64,000 nucleotides of DNA from Acidisoma sp. PAMC 29798 (GTDB lineage: Bacteria > Pseudomonadota > Alphaproteobacteria > Acetobacterales > Acetobacteraceae). Both the position numbers and the translations under genes were made by a program. Every line of letters starts with the position of its first letter. Within the stretch, counting starts at the first letter, position 1. The notes beneath the pieces are model-generated. The model worked only from the letters and a program-made list of their open reading frames with translations. It was not told the DNA's origin and made no database searches. Below, in pieces: positions 5,037 to 28,922 of this stretch. The stretch spans positions 186,001 through 250,000 of the forward strand of contig NZ_CP126994.1 of NCBI RefSeq assembly GCF_030252425.1, given 5' to 3'.

Positions 5037-5774
5037 ATGACGTTGCGGATTGGAATCGCCGGCATCAGCGGTCGGATGGGGCGCCTTCTGGTGGAAGAAG
5101 TGGCCGCCGCCGGCGCCGATATGGCGGGCGGAACACGGCGTGGCGACGACCTTGGGCCGGTCGCCGCCGCGAGCGACGTGGTGATCGACTTCACCCGCGC
5201 CGAGGCGGTTCAGGCCCATGCCGCCGCCCTGGCCGATTCCGTCACTGCCTGGGTGCTCGGCACCTCGGGCCTCAGCGCGGCGGATGAGATGGCGGTCGCC
5301 GAGGCGTCCAAGCGCATCGCCGTCGTCTACGCGGCAAACTTCTCACCCGGCGTCACCCTGGTGCTGGCCCTCGCCGAGCGCATGGCGGCGGCCCTGCCGG
5401 CAGCGCAATACGATGCCGAGATCGTCGAAATGCATCACCGCCAGAAGGTCGATGCGCCGTCCGGCACCGCCATTGGCCTCGGTCGGGCGGTCGCCACCGG
5501 GCGTGGCGTCGATCTTGCGGATGTCATGCAGAGCGGCCGGGACGGCCATACCGGCCCGCGCGAAATGGGCACGATCGGTTTCGCGGCCTTGCGCGGCGGC
5601 CAGGTGGTGGGCGAGCATAGCCTTCTATTCGCCGGTGCCGACGAGCATATCATTCTCACGCACAAGGCATTCGACCGCAGAACCTTCGCGTCGGGGGCTG
5701 TGCGCGCCGCGCTATGGGCTTCTACTCAGCCACCAGGCCTCTATGCGATGCGGGACGTTCTGGGTCTGCATTGA
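5037..5774 (+). CDS. dapB: 4-hydroxy-tetrahydrodipicolinate reductase
   Basis: Cytoplasmic NAD(P)H-dependent reductase of the diaminopimelate/lysine pathway. Visible are the N-terminal dinucleotide motif GISGRMGRL at residues 5-13 and the family signature [15 protein letters not shown] near 131-145, which contains the catalytic His pair and Lys. The C-terminal half has the conserved GEHSLLFAG segment. Length (245 aa) is slightly shorter than the E. coli enzyme. The ATG at 5037 is 32 nt after phbB, so the two may be co-transcribed. metK follows after 91 nt. Confidence 0.95.
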
Positions 5775-22915: not shown

Positions 22916-23227
22916 CTAATGCCCGCTTTGGCTCTGCGCGAAGGCGGCCTTCTGTTCTGCGGTCGCGGGCGCCTGATGCAGCGCCTGCCAGTCCTTGTAA
23001 GGCATGCCGTAGACGATTTCCCGTGCGTCCGAATCCGCGAGAGCGACGCCCTGCGACTCGGCGGCTTCCCGATACCAGCGCGACAGGCAATTCCGGCAGA
23101 AGCCGGCGAGGGTCATCAGGTCGATGTTTTGGACATCGCTGCGGTCGCGCAGATGCGCGACCAGGCTGCGAAAGGCCGCCGCTTCCAACGCCGTGCGGGT
23201 CGCGTCATCCATATCGGGGATCGTCAT
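22916..23227 (-). CDS. DUF1244 family protein
   Basis: 103-aa protein of the DUF1244 family, common in alphaproteobacteria and without a settled function. It is helical, with the conserved MTLAGFCRNCLSRWYREAA segment (seen as GFCRNCLSRWYREA near residue 43) and GMPYKDWQ. The two Cys of CRNC could bind a metal, but this is not shown. Its ATG overlaps the stop of the ETF-QO gene (TGATG), so translation is coupled to a respiratory enzyme. Confidence 0.85.
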   Translation of the reverse strand: MTIPDMDDATRTALEAAAFRSLVAHLRDRSDVQNIDLMTLAGFCRNCLSRWYREAAESQGVALADSDAREIVYGMPYKDWQALHQAPATAEQKAAFAQSQSGH

Positions 23228-24846
23228 CACATGCCTCCTGGATAGTTGGGGCCGCCGCCGCCTTCGGGCGCGTCCCAATCGATGTTCTGCGTCGGGTCCT
23301 TGATGTCGCAGGTTTTGCAATGCACGCAGTTCTGGGTGTTGATCTGTAGATGCGGGGTACCCTCCGCGACGCCCACCGCCTCATAGACGCCGGCCGGACA
23401 ATAGCGGCTTTCGGGGCTGCGATAGGTGTCCCAATTCACCGGCAGCCATTTCGCTGGGTCGCGGAGTTTGAGGTGAACCGGCTGGTGCTCCTCATGATTG
23501 GTATTGCTGATGAAGACCGAGGACAGACGGTCGAAGGTCAAGACGCCGTCCGGCTTGGGATAGGCGATCTTCTGGTCGTCGCGCGCTGGCTCCAACACCT
23601 CATGATCGGCATGGGGATGATGGAAGGTCCAAGGGGCGCGGCCCCGCAGCAGCACGGTATCGAGCGCCGAATAGACGAAGCCGCCCAGATTGCCGAACTT
23701 CGCGAAAGACGGCCGGATGTTCCGCACAGAAGACAGTTCCGTGTGCAGCCAGCTCGCGCGCAGTTTGTCGGTGAAGGTGGTGGGCTCGGCGGCGCCGGCC
23801 GCCCGCGCCTCCGCCACCGCTTCGGCCGCCAGCATGCCCGACTTCATGGCGGCGTGGGTGCCCTTGATCTTGGGCACGTTGAGGAAGCCGGCGGCATCCC
23901 CCAGCATTGCGCCGCCGGGGAAGGTGAGGCGGGGAATGGATTGTAAACCGCCTTCGCTGAGCGCGCGTGCGCCATAGCTGATGCGGCGGCCACCCTCGAA
24001 ATGCGGGCGCACCTGCGGATGGGTCTTCAGCCGCTGCATTTCGTCGAAGGGCGAGATCCAGGTGTTGCGATAGTCGAGGCCGATGACGAAGCCGTAGGAG
24101 ACGAGATTGTCACCGAAATGATAGAGCCACGAGCCGCCATAGGTGCGGCGGTCCATCGGCCAGCCGAAGCTGTGTTCGATCAGGCCCGGCTTGTGGTTGG
24201 CGGCCGGGATTTCCCATAGCTCCTTGATGCCAAGGCCGTAGGTCTGCGGGTCGATGCCCTGGCGCAGATTGAACCGCGCCATGAGCTGCTTGGACAGGCT
24301 GCCCCGGCAGCCTTCGGCGAACAGCGTGTAGGGCGCGCGCAGCTCCATGCCCGGCTGATGATTGGGACCCGGTTCGCCATTTTTATCGATACCCATGTCG
24401 CCGGTCGCGATGCCGAGGATGCGGCCGTCTTCCTCCAGCAGCTCGGCAGCCGCGAAACCGGGGTAGATTTCGACGCCAAGGGCTTCGGCTTGGGTGCCAA
24501 GCCAGCGCACGACATCCCCGAGGCTCGCGATATAATTGCCGTGATTGTGCATCTGCGGCGGCGTCGGCAATTTGAAGGCGCGCTTTTCGGTCAGGAAGAG
24601 GAAGCGGTCGTCGCGGGCCTCGGTCTTCAGCGGGCTCTCGGTTTCCCGCCAGGCGGGCAGCAACTCATCCAGGGCGCGCGGCTCGATCACCGCGCCGGAC
24701 AGGATATGGGCGCCGACTTCACCGCCTTTTTCCACCACGCAGACGGTCATGTCGGGGTCGAGCTGCTTCAGCCGGATGGCGGCCGCCAGTCCCGCCGGTC
24801 CGGCACCGACGATGACGACGTCGAACTCCATCGATTCCCGCTGCAT
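23227..24846 (-). CDS. Electron transfer flavoprotein-ubiquinone oxidoreductase
   Basis: Membrane-attached FAD and 4Fe-4S protein passing electrons from ETF (fatty acid and amino acid oxidation) to ubiquinone. The FAD motif VVIVGAGPAGLAAAIRLKQ is at the N-terminus. GLGIKELWEIP and the C-terminal cluster region CPAGVYE ... NCVHCKTCDIKDPTQNI carry the four Cys ligands. About 539 aa, as expected. The start at 24846 (MQRESMEFDVV) is preferred because it has AAAAGG upstream and matches the family N-terminus; an ATG at 24885 is also open. It is coupled to DUF1244 downstream. Confidence 0.95.
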   Translation of the reverse strand: MQRESMEFDVVIVGAGPAGLAAAIRLKQLDPDMTVCVVEKGGEVGAHILSGAVIEPRALDELLPAWRETESPLKTEARDDRFLFLTEKRAFKLPTPPQMHNHGNYIASLGDVVRWLGTQAEALGVEIYPGFAAAELLEEDGRILGIATGDMGIDKNGEPGPNHQPGMELRAPYTLFAEGCRGSLSKQLMARFNLRQGIDPQTYGLGIKELWEIPAANHKPGLIEHSFGWPMDRRTYGGSWLYHFGDNLVSYGFVIGLDYRNTWISPFDEMQRLKTHPQVRPHFEGGRRISYGARALSEGGLQSIPRLTFPGGAMLGDAAGFLNVPKIKGTHAAMKSGMLAAEAVAEARAAGAAEPTTFTDKLRASWLHTELSSVRNIRPSFAKFGNLGGFVYSALDTVLLRGRAPWTFHHPHADHEVLEPARDDQKIAYPKPDGVLTFDRLSSVFISNTNHEEHQPVHLKLRDPAKWLPVNWDTYRSPESRYCPAGVYEAVGVAEGTPHLQINTQNCVHCKTCDIKDPTQNIDWDAPEGGGGPNYPGGM

Positions 24847-25051
24847 GGCCGGCCTTTTTTCCTGAGCAAACGCACGAGGATGCACTGATGCCCCTGGGGC
24901 CCATCAGGCGCAAGCCGCAGGATCTCGGCGGTCTGCCCGCTGCATCCGAGCGATGGGTGTGGTCGTAACGACTCTCAAGAGGCGTTAATAAAATCCGCCA
25001 CATGCGGTCAGAACGTGACAATGTGAAACAACTATTAATGGAGTTGGGTGC

Positions 25052-25831
25052 GTGATCACTGGCGTCGGAGAAGAGTTAGTTGTGCTATCGCATGGATTCG
25101 GAACCGACCAAACGGCGTGGAACGCCATCCGGCCCTGGCTTGAGACTCATTTTCGCGTGTTATCCTATGATCTCGCCGGGGCCGGGCCGAATGGGGCGCA
25201 AAGCTACGATTCCCGGCGGCACAACACCTTGTTCGGCTTCGCTGATGACCTTTTGGATCTGCTGGCGGCTAACGCCGTGGACCGCTGCATCTACATCGGT
25301 CATTCCGTCAGCGGCATGATCGGCGCGGCGGCGGCCGTGGCGCAGCCCGAGGTCTTCACCAAGCTCATCATGATCGGTGCGTCGCCCCGCTATCTGAACG
25401 ACGAGGGCTATCGTGGCGGCTTTGACCAGTCCGACCTCGATGGCGTGTTCGACAGCATGGCCACCAACTTCCAAGCCTGGGGGGCTGGGTTCGCCCCTGC
25501 GGTGGTCGGCGTTCCCGACAACGAGGCCATTAACGAGTTCTGCCGGACCTTGTTCATGGTGCGCCCGGACATCGCCTTGGCCACGTCGCGGACGATTTTT
25601 CAGTCGGACATGCGCCAGATCGCCGAGCGGCTGGAGCGGCCAGTGCATCTTCTGCAGACGGCCCGTGACCTGGCCGTGCCAGGGGAGGTCGCGATATGGC
25701 TCAAAACGCATATTGAGGGCGCGACGCTCGATACGCTGGATGCAGAAGGGCATCTCCCTCACATGACGGCGCCGGCGGAGGTTATTCGCGTGCTTGAGCG
25801 TCGCTTGCAGCCCGCCGGCCGGCCGCACTGA
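25052..25831 (+). CDS. RsbQ/KAI2-like alpha/beta hydrolase
   Basis: 259-aa alpha/beta hydrolase without signal peptide. It resembles Bacillus RsbQ and plant KAI2/D14: SHGFGTDQTAWN, then RVLSYDLAGAG, the nucleophile in GHSVSGMIGA (Ser near residue 91), GASPRYLNDEGYRGGF, a lid region, Asp in TARDLAVPG and His in AEGHLPHM. The full Ser-Asp-His triad is present. In Bacillus RsbQ is needed by the PAS-domain phosphatase RsbP; such hydrolases occur beside PAS proteins with varied outputs. Here a PAS-GGDEF gene follows after 14 nt. It starts with GTG; GGAG lies about 9 nt upstream. The ligand is unknown. Confidence 0.88.
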   Translation: MITGVGEELVVLSHGFGTDQTAWNAIRPWLETHFRVLSYDLAGAGPNGAQSYDSRRHNTLFGFADDLLDLLAANAVDRCIYIGHSVSGMIGAAAAVAQPEVFTKLIMIGASPRYLNDEGYRGGFDQSDLDGVFDSMATNFQAWGAGFAPAVVGVPDNEAINEFCRTLFMVRPDIALATSRTIFQSDMRQIAERLERPVHLLQTARDLAVPGEVAIWLKTHIEGATLDTLDAEGHLPHMTAPAEVIRVLERRLQPAGRPH

Positions 25832-25845
25832 TCCTGGCCGGACCG

Positions 25846-27213
25846 ATGGATTCGATCCAGGCGGAACCATCGGGTGGCGCGGGCCTGGAGGCATTGACGC
25901 GCTTCGCGCGGCGCGCCGCCGGGGCTGACTTTGCCCTGGCCTTCCAGGCCGGTGCGGATGGATTGGCCGTTCCCCTGGCGTCCGATCCCGGACCTTTGCC
26001 GCGCGCCTTCTCCCTCGGCCGGACGCGGTTCGAGTCGCTGGACTGGTCGGGCGGACCGAAGGCTGCGGCACCCCTCGCTTTGCCGAGCTCGGTTCTGCTC
26101 GCGATCGACCGTCCCGTTCAGCAGGCGCTGTTCATTCCGACGCCGTTTGCGGACGCACCGCGCAGCGGCGTCTTGCTCCTATGGGTCGCCAATCGCGCCT
26201 GGCGCTGCGAATGCCCCTTTCGCGACGATATGGAAGGCAGCGTCATTCTGCTGCAATCCGCATTCGGCCAGATGCTGGCCGGTCAGCAAGACAGGGTCCG
26301 TCGCACACTGACCAATGATCGGTTTCATGATCTGTTTGAGACGGTGCCGACCGGCATCGTTTTCATGGACCGGAACGCGTCGCATGCCTTGGTCAATGAG
26401 CGCGCTGCCGTTTTGCTGGACATGGCGGCAGGCGAAGTGGAGGCGGCGGAGGTCGGTGCCCGGATGCGGGCAATGCGGGAAGGCTGCCGCAACCGCGATG
26501 CGTTGGAGATACTTTATGCCGATCTTCAGACGACGCTCGATTACGCCTCCACGGCGATATGGGTGTCGGAGGCAAGCCATATCGAAGTCGATACCCATCC
26601 CGTTCTGGGGCATGGCAGGAATGGGCGCATCTGGCTCTTTCACGATGTCACGGCGCGCGAGAGGCTGGACGACGAACTGCGTCGCCGCGCGGACACCGAC
26701 GCGCTGACCGGACTTGCCAATCGCCGACGGTTCTTCGAGGTCAGCACCGCCGCCTTGCAGAAGGCCACCCTGGCGTATGGCGCCGGCAGCGGTATGTCGA
26801 TCTTGCTGCTCGACATCGACCATTTCAAAGCGATCAACGACCGTCACGGTCATCCCGCGGGGGATGCGGTGCTGCATGACTTCGCGCTGCGCTGCCAGTC
26901 CGTGTTGCGCCAGCGCGATGTCATGGCGCGCATGGGCGGGGAGGAGTTCGCCGTGCTGCTGCCCGGAACGGGCGCGGAGGAGGCACGCGGCATCGCCGAG
27001 CGGCTGTGCAGCGCAGTCGGCGGCGCTGCCTTCGAGGCCGATGATGCGGCGATATCGGTGACGGTCAGCATCGGCGCCACGACGCGGATCGACGACGACC
27101 ATAGTCTCGACCCCCTGCTCAAGCGTGCCGATCTCGCCCTTTATGAGGCGAAGATGTCGGGCCGGAACCGCGTCGGTTTCAAGGTCACGCTCGCCGATCA
27201 AACGACGTCATAG
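25846..27213 (+). CDS. GAF-like/PAS/GGDEF diguanylate cyclase
   Basis: 455-aa predicted c-di-GMP synthase. Residues about 8-145 look GAF-like. Residues about 160-275 form a PAS domain (FHDLFETVPTGIVFMDRN, then IWLFHDVTARERLDDEL). Residues about 280-450 are a GGDEF domain with DALTGLANRR, LLDIDHFKAINDRHGH and the intact active site GGEEF. An RxxD inhibitory site (RQRD) lies five residues before GGEEF, so product feedback is likely. No membrane helix is seen. It sits 14 nt after the RsbQ-like hydrolase gene, which suggests that the PAS domain senses a compound handled by the hydrolase (inference). The 3' end overlaps the convergent sulfotransferase gene by 16 nt. Confidence 0.9.
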   Translation: MDSIQAEPSGGAGLEALTRFARRAAGADFALAFQAGADGLAVPLASDPGPLPRAFSLGRTRFESLDWSGGPKAAAPLALPSSVLLAIDRPVQQALFIPTPFADAPRSGVLLLWVANRAWRCECPFRDDMEGSVILLQSAFGQMLAGQQDRVRRTLTNDRFHDLFETVPTGIVFMDRNASHALVNERAAVLLDMAAGEVEAAEVGARMRAMREGCRNRDALEILYADLQTTLDYASTAIWVSEASHIEVDTHPVLGHGRNGRIWLFHDVTARERLDDELRRRADTDALTGLANRRRFFEVSTAALQKATLAYGAGSGMSILLLDIDHFKAINDRHGHPAGDAVLHDFALRCQSVLRQRDVMARMGGEEFAVLLPGTGAEEARGIAERLCSAVGGAAFEADDAAISVTVSIGATTRIDDDHSLDPLLKRADLALYEAKMSGRNRVGFKVTLADQTTS

Positions 27214-28769
27214 CCCAGGCGTTCGATGGCCGGCGCCAGGATGGCCATCGCCGGCTCCAACTGTCGGCGGTAATGGCGCCAGCGTTCGACCGAGCGATCA
27301 TACAGCGGCTCGGTCACCTGAGCGTAGCTCGCGGTGCGGGCGTAGCGGCGATTGTCGTGAAATGTCAGGCAGGCGGGGTCGAACGCCTCCCCCACGAAGG
27401 CCAGCATGGCGGCGACGCTGGCGGTGTGGTGACGCACGATCTCCTCGTAGCGAATGGCCAGATATCGCAGGGACATCTCGGCACGGTAGTGCGCCACCAG
27501 GTCCGTGACACGGACATAATGGCGGGCCGCAGTCTCCAACGCGCTCGCGCAGAAGAAGCCATGGGTGAAGTGGTTGGACATGCAGGACACCATCACGTCC
27601 AGCGGATGACGCAGGACATGGAGCAGAGGCGCTTCGGGGAAGAGCAGGGCGATGAGGCCGAGATGGGTCTCGTTCAGCGGCATCTTGTCTGTAAAGCGAG
27701 TGGCCCCAGGGCGGAGGACGCCAAGCTGGCGCACCTTCTGCAGGTAGTGGTCGCGCAGCGTCTCCAGCCCATCGCGATGATCGCCCATCCAAAGCTCGGC
27801 CAGGGCTTGGGGATAGGCGAGGGGGCTCGCGAGCATGCGCGGCATGATCCGGGTGATTTCGTGAATGAGGGGCAGTTCGTCCCCCGCCGCGATAGCGGGA
27901 TGAGCCGACAGCGTCTGTTCCACCAGGGTGGTGCCGGAGCGGGGAAAGCCCAGGATGAAGATCGGCTGCGGCACATCGCGGCGCGGCGCGGCGCGCGGCA
28001 ACAGGTTCAGGCGGGGCGCCACGAAGAAGCGGGTGAGACGCGCGCTCTCGCGGCCGGCCTCCTCATCGAGGTAGGCCTTGCCAGAGCGCTCGCGGGCCAG
28101 GCGCTTGCCTGCCTCGAAGGCGGTCCAGGCATCGTCGTAGCGGCCGAGCTGATCGAGCAGCCGCCCCTTTTCGAGCAGCTCCGTCGGGCCGAGCCCGCTC
28201 TCCCGCTCGCCCATCGTGTCGATCAGGGCGATCGCCTCATCGAAGCGACGCATGCGGCCGAGCAGCACGGCGCGGGTGAGTTTCAGGTTGGGGTCGTCGG
28301 GGAACCGTCCCTCCATCTCATCCAAGATGTCCGCGGCGGCATCGAAGCGGCGATCGGCCTCCTCAAGGCGGGCGAAGCCGAACAGGGTTTGGCGAATGTC
28401 GGGGCGGGCGGCGCGCGATTCCCGATAGAGGGCGCGCGCTTCGTCCATTCGCCCCTGGCTTTTGAGGTTCCAGGCGAGGTTGGCGAGCAGAACCGGGTCC
28501 CGTGCCTCCGTCAGGTCGAGCACTTGCCGGTAATGGAACTCGCCGGTCTGTGGCCGGTTGGACTCGGTCAGGATCATGCCCATGAGGTTATGGGCCTGCG
28601 GATTTTCGGGACCGATGCGAATGGCGTTACGGGCATGGAGTTCCGCCTCGGCGAGATTACCGCGCGCAAACAGCAGCAGCGCCAGCGCATTGGTGGCGGC
28701 AAGATCGTTGCGATCCGTCGCAAGGGCGGCACGCGCGTCTGTTTCAGCGTCATCATGAGGCTTATTCAT
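27198..28769 (-). CDS. TPR-repeat sulfotransferase
   Basis: 523-aa protein with two parts. The N-terminal half (about 1-245) is tetratricopeptide repeats (AATNALALLLFARGNLAEAE, then NPQAHNLMGMILTE). The C-terminal half is a sulfotransferase with the PAPS 5'-phosphosulfate loop FILGFPRSGTTLVEQ near 265 and RHPLDVMVSCMSN further on. Such fusions transfer sulfate from PAPS to unknown, often protein or glycan, acceptors. The start MNKPHDDAET at 28769 is chosen over a frame running to 28892, because the upstream part translates a REP-like element. Confidence 0.85.
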   Translation of the reverse strand: MNKPHDDAETDARAALATDRNDLAATNALALLLFARGNLAEAELHARNAIRIGPENPQAHNLMGMILTESNRPQTGEFHYRQVLDLTEARDPVLLANLAWNLKSQGRMDEARALYRESRAARPDIRQTLFGFARLEEADRRFDAAADILDEMEGRFPDDPNLKLTRAVLLGRMRRFDEAIALIDTMGERESGLGPTELLEKGRLLDQLGRYDDAWTAFEAGKRLARERSGKAYLDEEAGRESARLTRFFVAPRLNLLPRAAPRRDVPQPIFILGFPRSGTTLVEQTLSAHPAIAAGDELPLIHEITRIMPRMLASPLAYPQALAELWMGDHRDGLETLRDHYLQKVRQLGVLRPGATRFTDKMPLNETHLGLIALLFPEAPLLHVLRHPLDVMVSCMSNHFTHGFFCASALETAARHYVRVTDLVAHYRAEMSLRYLAIRYEEIVRHHTASVAAMLAFVGEAFDPACLTFHDNRRYARTASYAQVTEPLYDRSVERWRHYRRQLEPAMAILAPAIERLGYDVV

Positions 28770-28823
28770 AACGATAACGTAATTTAAAGATTCGCGGAAG
28801 TCGAGCGCGCCGGGTGGTCCACA

Positions 28824-28891
28824 GCGGATAACGCTGCGCTCATCCGCCCTACGGATCCTCGTAGGGTGGAAAAGCGGAGCGCATTCCACCA
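28824..28891. repeat. Inverted pair of REP-like units
   Basis: Two units face each other between divergent genes. A reverse type B unit lies at 28824-28852 (ends CATCCGCCCTAC) and a forward type A unit at 28861-28891 (starts GTAGGGTGGAAAAGCG). They are separated by GGATCCTC and could fold into one long cruciform or hairpin. Confidence 0.8.
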
Positions 28892-28922
28892 CGCACCAGT
28901 TCAGCGGGAGAGACGGATACCG

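Follow-up and report, generated by a model that had tools for sequence, protein, structure and literature searches.

In the window, by which we mean the whole 64,000-nucleotide stretch of Acidisoma sp. PAMC 29798 analyzed here (contig NZ_CP126994.1, positions 186,001 to 250,000), a hydrolase gene of the KAI2/D14 type stands directly upstream of a gene for a predicted GAF-PAS-GGDEF diguanylate cyclase. We lean towards reading the pair as a two-gene receptor-cyclase module that would work like RsbQ-RsbP yet form a separate class, with a hydrolase from another clade and a partner of another architecture. The module probably senses a small lactone-like molecule and sets the level of cyclic di-GMP (c-di-GMP); we infer both the ligand and the direction of control. 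A preliminary description of this DNA had presented the pair as an RsbQ-PAS module. The genes were found where it placed them, with the open reading frame (ORF) of the hydrolase at 25052-25831 (+; GTG start, 259 amino acids) and that of the cyclase at 25846-27213 (+; 455 amino acids), 14 nucleotides (nt) apart. The module type it proposed did not stand, as the hydrolase falls on the KAI2/D14 side and its partner has no domain of the RsbP-PAS kind.

The hydrolase carries, as reported before, the segments GHSVSG, SPRYLNDEGY and GHLPHM and a complete Ser-Asp-His triad, which was located by alignment to AtKAI2 (Ser85, Asp206 and His234 in the GTG-started protein). When the protein was compared by phmmer with sequences in the PDB, petunia DAD2 gave 278.7 bits, AtKAI2 244.8 and Bacillus subtilis RsbQ 178.6; identity was 51% to DAD2, 48-49% to moss KAI2-like proteins, 46% to AtD14, 44% to AtKAI2 and 34% to RsbQ. 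A tree was built with IQ-TREE under LG+C20 from 66 rows, 3 of them very long outgroup rows, with L021 and L022 left out because their contigs are those of L009 and L010. It contained an RsbQ clade of 42 rows (support 99/96) and a KAI2/D14 clade of 19 rows (100/99), the latter made up of 5 plant and 14 bacterial rows, the window included, while L052 and the Hymenobacter locus L082 fell in neither. Removal of the outgroup left the KAI2/D14 support at 100/99, and the grouping of the window type with plants and L079 was supported at 97/86 with the outgroup and at 95/88 without it. By approximately unbiased (AU) tests, in which the groups were chosen after inspection of the tree, forcing the window type onto the RsbQ side was rejected (cost of 86.7 log units, p-AU 8.85e-7), joining the bacterial KAI2-side rows to the exclusion of plants was mildly rejected (p-AU 0.0285), and a single clade for the plant rows was not rejected (p 0.449). 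Altogether, the sequence comparisons place the window hydrolase on the KAI2/D14 side and not with RsbQ; the KAI2/D14 relatedness given in the preliminary description was right.

The ligand cavity adds a modest argument, since all of the Phe and Tyr residues listed next except Phe174 are also present in B. subtilis RsbQ. The window hydrolase has Phe at AtKAI2 position 26 and at positions 134, 157, 174 and 194, which we take to be the numbers of the further cavity phenylalanines, and Tyr at position 124. Phe174 occurs in 19 of 19 KAI2-side rows versus 1 of 44 other rows. At positions 157 and 194, Phe is present in all nine KAI2-side hydrolases that have an adjoining partner gene (9/9 each) and in 1 of 5 each of those that have none. 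The Ser-Asp-His triad, a Phe-lined cavity and the position numbers Tyr124, Phe26, Gly53 and Ser188 are given in a part of PMC3548789.

The partner comprises, in order, a GAF-fold domain (about residues 11-151; 25876-26298 with the start of the next helix), a PAS domain (residues 152-270; 26299-26655) and a GGDEF domain (residues 282-442; 26689-27171, at 212689-213171 of the contig), all on the plus strand. The GGDEF match is strong (Pfam PF00990, 5.3e-42, 143.8 bits), and in RQRD-VMARM-GGEEF the RxxD site precedes GGEEF by five residues; both motifs are intact, as had been noted, and the protein is, as judged from its motifs, a diguanylate cyclase. The PAS domain is weak in the window cyclase (PAS_7, E 0.055), under the Pfam cut-off, as it is in L011, L023, L072, L077 and L079; it exceeds the cut-off in the orthologues L009, L010 and L041 (PAS_8; in L041 also PAS_7). 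The first domain found no Pfam match in the window cyclase or in eight relatives. An AlphaFold2 (AF2) model of the isolated domain (7 sequences) had a predicted local distance difference test score (pLDDT) of 82.5 and a predicted template modeling score (pTM) of 0.79, and Foldseek returned 23 matches at E ≤ 0.001, all but two of which were GAF domains or GAF-containing phytochrome-type chains, the two exceptions being phage holin-T chains. The GAF matches, which included cyanobacteriochromes, phytochromes and DosS/DevS, had E values of 1e-4 to 1e-3 and TM scores of about 0.5; the best match had an E value of 1e-4 and a probability of 1.00, with root-mean-square deviations of 5-9 Å. These models indicate the GAF fold that the preliminary description had suspected. 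A diverged RsbP-PAS, considered as another identity for this domain, is not supported, as AF2 and Foldseek indicate GAF. GAF is a ligand-binding fold. AF2 also predicts a helix of 16 residues (269-284) before GGDEF, the criterion for RsbQ/RsbP-PAS modules being that a coiled coil 21 residues long or longer separates the PAS domain from the output domain. A Cys121-x-Cys123 pair (26206-26214) in the GAF domain is kept in the six closest members and missing in the other three; the surrounding motif, Cys-x-Cys-Pro/Ser-Phe-Arg, could be a redox or metal site.

The work of Nadezhdin, Brody and Price 2011 (PMC3183031) catalogues 45 pairs of RsbQ with RsbP-PAS whose outputs are phosphatases, kinases and cyclases, a catalogue repeated in a passage of PMC12143880, and characterizes the RsbQ-PAS module by an RsbP-PAS domain in the most N-terminal position, the lack of a DIT motif and a conserved F-alpha (F55 and Y59 in RsbP). 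The earlier remark that such modules have varied outputs thus stands, and hydrolase-PAS-cyclase modules in general are not new; it is the pairing of a KAI2-side hydrolase with a GAF-PAS cyclase that differs from the described RsbQ-RsbP type. In nine partnered KAI2-side loci (the window, L009, L010, L011, L023, L041, L072, L077 and L079), the hydrolase and partner genes keep one order and lie -17 to +14 nt apart, with two start codons picked by us. Since the order and short gaps recur in nine loci from several families, the pairing goes beyond chance. Eight of the partners are cyclases and one, that of L072, is a histidine kinase. Of 40 loci on the RsbQ side, 39 encode RsbP-PAS in a downstream gene or as a fusion; 38 of them belong to the profile set, and the partner of the other, L024, was seen in the larger stretch L076 at 125 bits. 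No RsbP-PAS protein was found in the 1.5-kb flank of L064. Outside both clades, L052 is also paired with an RsbP-PAS protein, which scored 76.5 bits when held out, and no partner is annotated beside the hydrolase of L082.

Profile comparisons separated the two kinds of partner, the RsbP-type set being an automatic longest-ORF pick. In five-fold testing of the RsbP-PAS profile, 39 held-out members scored at least 76.5 bits, while none of the nine KAI2-side partners exceeded 15.3 bits, the match covering some 50 positions; other cyclase-locus ORFs of the window genome (14 ORFs from 8 of its 29 GGDEF places) scored at most 11.3 bits. Most of the nine aligned only to the first 50 or so profile positions and L072 only to its end (3.6 bits), with no match to the F-alpha part; a regular expression for F-alpha, found in 23 of 39 RsbP-type and 0 of 9 KAI2-side partners, is too narrow and was not relied on. 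A PAS profile made from six window-type partners gave 68.3 bits for the held-out piece of L077 over its first 71 positions and, over the full domain, 46.5 bits for held-out L072 and 25.6 bits for held-out L079, with at most 9.9 bits for the 39 RsbP-type partners and the 14 other-cyclase ORFs. A DIT-like ending of the PAS domain (WxFxD[IV][ST] as a regular expression; W-L-F-H-D-V-T in the window) was present in all eight KAI2-side partners readable there and in 0 of 39 RsbP-type partners; for the ninth, WLFTDVTA was seen in its detached C-terminal piece. The GAF profile, tested by leaving one out, recognized the first domain of 7 of the 9 KAI2-side partners at 84-211 bits.

Partner class therefore follows hydrolase clade (9/9 versus 38/38 profile-set partners, Fisher 7e-10), an association that may reflect a single evolutionary switch, the Fisher value not being a test of independent events. 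Both classes occur together in A. silvae (G179), which has two RsbQ-type pairs (L038 and L040) and one KAI2-type pair (L010/L022), each hydrolase with its own partner type. Our reading of these comparisons, held with the same moderate confidence as the module explanation as a whole, is that there are two parallel classes of hydrolase-sensor module and that the window pair belongs to the second and not to RsbQ-PAS. That hydrolase and cyclase can be coupled on the RsbQ side is seen in the single-chain protein of L067, a natural fusion of 582 amino acids joining an RsbQ-type hydrolase, RsbP-PAS (76.7 bits held out) and GGDEF; its genome also has a two-gene form (L069).

The distribution of the module was surveyed in genomes and plasmids. 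The window genome (5.0 Mb, with 29 GGDEF matches, two of them partial) has a single hydrolase of this kind, the next best being 28% identical over a part. Within the family, 18 of 299 genomes had hydrolase matches at E ≤ 1e-20, and four of these genomes hold the window protein or one at least 70% identical (G000, G217, G179 and G268); exactly these four had GAF profile matches at E 1e-4. Within the class, E 1e-40 was reached in 11 of 385 genomes, of which six are KAI2-side, three with the partner (G000, G561 and G532) and three without (G460, G337 and G558). The GAF profile matched below 1e-39 in the same three partnered genomes out of 385, the next value being 0.002; at E ≤ 1 there were matches in 63 of the 385 genomes, all but the three strong ones at 0.002 or weaker. 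At the level of the phylum, 20 of 398 genomes had hydrolase matches, the window's being the only KAI2-side one. Every strong GAF match in the family and class sets, both of which include the window genome, adjoins a KAI2-side hydrolase; the profile was built with these rows, so that the positives are not independent, while the absence of strong matches elsewhere is. When 40 hand-chosen genomes were searched with the PAS profile, all six strong matches lay beside the hydrolase, five of them being profile members and G532 the only one from outside (2.3e-13); the next match was 9.5e-5 over half the domain. In the 7 genomes of the G561 family and the 4 of the G532 family, no further copy of the module was found. 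As only the best first-look candidates were scored in the large sets (6 or 8 for the hydrolase, 10 or 13 for the GAF profile), paralogues may be missed. A contig search with the single protein gave four loci, and L012, a 46-residue Treponema match, was dropped.

The module is also carried by a Novosphingobium plasmid (hydrolase 63% identical, partner split over the record start) and by Sphingosinicella. Among 72,556 plasmid records, the window GAF-PAS region matched only the Novosphingobium record; since this search did not recover the Sphingosinicella partner, distant plasmid partners are missed by it. Hydrolase matches were obtained in 73 plasmid records, and the neighborhoods of the best five were read. 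In the Sphingosinicella plasmid p1 (L079, 4737-6020), the annotated cyclase start at 5043 omits the N-terminal domain, and the open frame of the cyclase extends far enough upstream to overlap the end of the hydrolase gene.

Several observations weigh against a separate class of receptor-cyclase module. Three of the nine partnered loci come from one genus, and within the window's own genus the module is patchy, present in 3 of 5 genomes (the window's included) and missing from G053 and G130; among relatives with the hydrolase, the pairing noted in the preliminary description is retained. The first domains of L072 and L079 were not recognized by the held-out GAF profile, and their homology is not shown by sequence, so that PAS is the only domain whose presence in all nine partners is demonstrated. 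Five of the 14 bacterial KAI2-side hydrolases (L042, L044, L045 and the Azospirillum plasmid loci L080 and L081) have no adjoining sensor gene, and the hydrolase can therefore do something alone. The AF2 model of the full-length cyclase (mean pLDDT 77.3) had a pTM of 0.39, which makes its domain arrangement unreliable. In addition, the hydrolase N-terminus is about 10 residues shorter than that of AtKAI2 in all three Acidisoma species; a passage of PMC3548789 notes that the first strand of the canonical fold is missing in KAI2, DAD2 and RsbQ alike, and the Acidisoma N-terminus is shorter still. PAS-like ORFs were seen about 4 kb off in L073 and L074.

Other explanations of the pair overlap with ours and with one another, and the confidence placed in them need not sum to one. 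An RsbQ-PAS module of the usual kind, with a cyclase as output like some in the 2011 catalogue and with an extra N-terminal domain, would have the same gene order, a hydrolase homologous to RsbQ as this one is at 178.6 bits, and a PAS and a GGDEF domain, and cyclase outputs are among those listed in PMC3183031. We nevertheless consider it improbable: the PAS domain is not the most N-terminal one in the window partner and has a DIT-like ending, the RsbP-PAS scores of the nine partners (at most 15.3 bits, about 50 positions) lie far below those of held-out true members (at least 76.5 bits), and the AU test rejects window-type hydrolases on the RsbQ side. Plain membership in the RsbQ-PAS group was accordingly rejected, by the tree and AU test together with the RsbP-PAS and PAS profiles. 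A similarly unlikely explanation is a metabolic role for the hydrolase, as a lactonase or esterase that simply happens to be encoded beside a cyclase. The clade does have partnerless members, and the protein resembles enol-lactonase models, at 87.3 bits, far under their cut-off of 255.85; this explanation would, however, leave the tracking of partner type with hydrolase clade (9/9 versus 39/40), the retention of Phe157 and Phe194 as in plants by partnered members and mostly not by partnerless ones, and the lack of strong GAF matches away from the hydrolase in the 299 family and 385 class genomes to coincidence.

It is conceivable, though we hold it to be doubtful, that the hydrolase makes a compound that diffuses or is handed to a pocket of the GAF or PAS domain, which would then be the true sensor; this product delivery is compatible with the class assignment. 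The triad is complete, and GAF domains in general bind ligands. Model 1 of PMC3183031 is of this kind. Speaking against it, no conserved ligand or cofactor residues were identified in the nine partners except the Cys-x-Cys of six, and L072 and L079 have a divergent first domain.

For the receptor-cyclase module that we favor, the steps from ligand to output, the contact between the proteins included, can be drawn by analogy. The KAI2/D14-type hydrolase would bind, and probably slowly cleave, a small hydrophobic molecule in its cavity, and direct contact would convey the loaded or cleaved state to the GAF region, the PAS region or both in the cyclase dimer. Through its DIT-like motif and helix, the PAS end may then alter how the two GGDEF domains pair and thereby c-di-GMP synthesis, which the RxxD site would limit by product feedback; the GAF domain could be a docking site or a second input. 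Sections of PMC3183031 report that RsbQ touches RsbP-PAS directly and that triad mutants are null, and PMC13192556 cites, in a passage, Melville et al. 2024 for the perception of butenolides by B. subtilis RsbQ. The RsbQ/RsbP-PAS interface is not simply transferable to the window pair, in which the GAF and the other PAS class are both candidate docking sites.

With RsbQ-RsbP and RsbQ-PAS, the pair shares a hydrolase gene directly upstream of that for a PAS protein and interchangeable outputs, GGDEF and histidine kinase among them; it differs in the clade of its hydrolase, which is our criterion for membership, and in a partner that begins with a GAF fold instead of RsbP-PAS, has another class of PAS with a DIT-like ending and shows no F-alpha profile match. 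Plant KAI2 and D14/DAD2 have in common with the window hydrolase the clade (100/99), the triad and the cavity phenylalanines, and KAI2 also Tyr124 and Gly53, for which RsbQ has the same states; the bacterial partner is a cyclase or kinase rather than an F-box protein and its target, and the N-terminus is shorter in Acidisoma. The GGEEF and RxxD motifs, the DIT-like PAS end and the helix into GGDEF are those of PAS-GGDEF and GAF-GGDEF diguanylate cyclases, whereas the window type was found here only beside a KAI2-type hydrolase and its GAF fold has no Pfam match. Among the matches listed in open-licence literature, there was no paper describing a hydrolase of the KAI2/D14 side paired with a GAF-PAS cyclase.

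PMC10504578 still calls the natural KAI2 ligand undiscovered, and in 2011 PMC3183031 described the cue sensed by RsbQ modules as mysterious; a bacterial member of the KAI2/D14 side that brings its own enzymatic readout would offer a simple system for a ligand search. The pair may also show how KAI2-type receptors signal outside plants, without plant partners. If hydrolase-sensor modules are split into two classes, a shared interface should not be assumed. PMC10504578 cites, in a passage, Wang et al. 2022 for a possible origin of plant KAI2 by horizontal transfer of bacterial RsbQ. More speculatively, the window type could represent a second ancient receptor class, in which bacterial KAI2-type proteins read butenolide-like molecules of plants or microbes and switch GAF-PAS cyclases or kinases, and, among the wirings of present-day bacteria, could come nearest to the ancestor of plant KAI2/D14. 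The receptor would then have swapped partners on entering plants and kept its ligand cavity.

At the locus itself, the GTG start of the hydrolase is supported by a ribosome-site-like GGAG motif (25040-25043, +) 8 nt upstream, with the same motif and spacing in two other Acidisoma species (window 25019-25054; L009 and L010 near 5977), the start codon being GTG or TTG in all three. Scans for promoters and terminators at the pair found nothing; the two genes are presumably cotranscribed. Both genes are under purifying selection, the ratio of nonsynonymous to synonymous substitution rates (dN/dS; NG86) being about 0.09-0.13 in the hydrolase and 0.12-0.23 in the cyclase, rough values as dS is near or above 1. 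The pair is flanked on its 5' side by a divergent gene for electron-transfer-flavoprotein:ubiquinone oxidoreductase (23227-24885, -) and on its 3' side by a convergent gene for a tetratricopeptide repeat (TPR)-sulfotransferase (27198-28892, -), whose end overlaps that of the cyclase gene.

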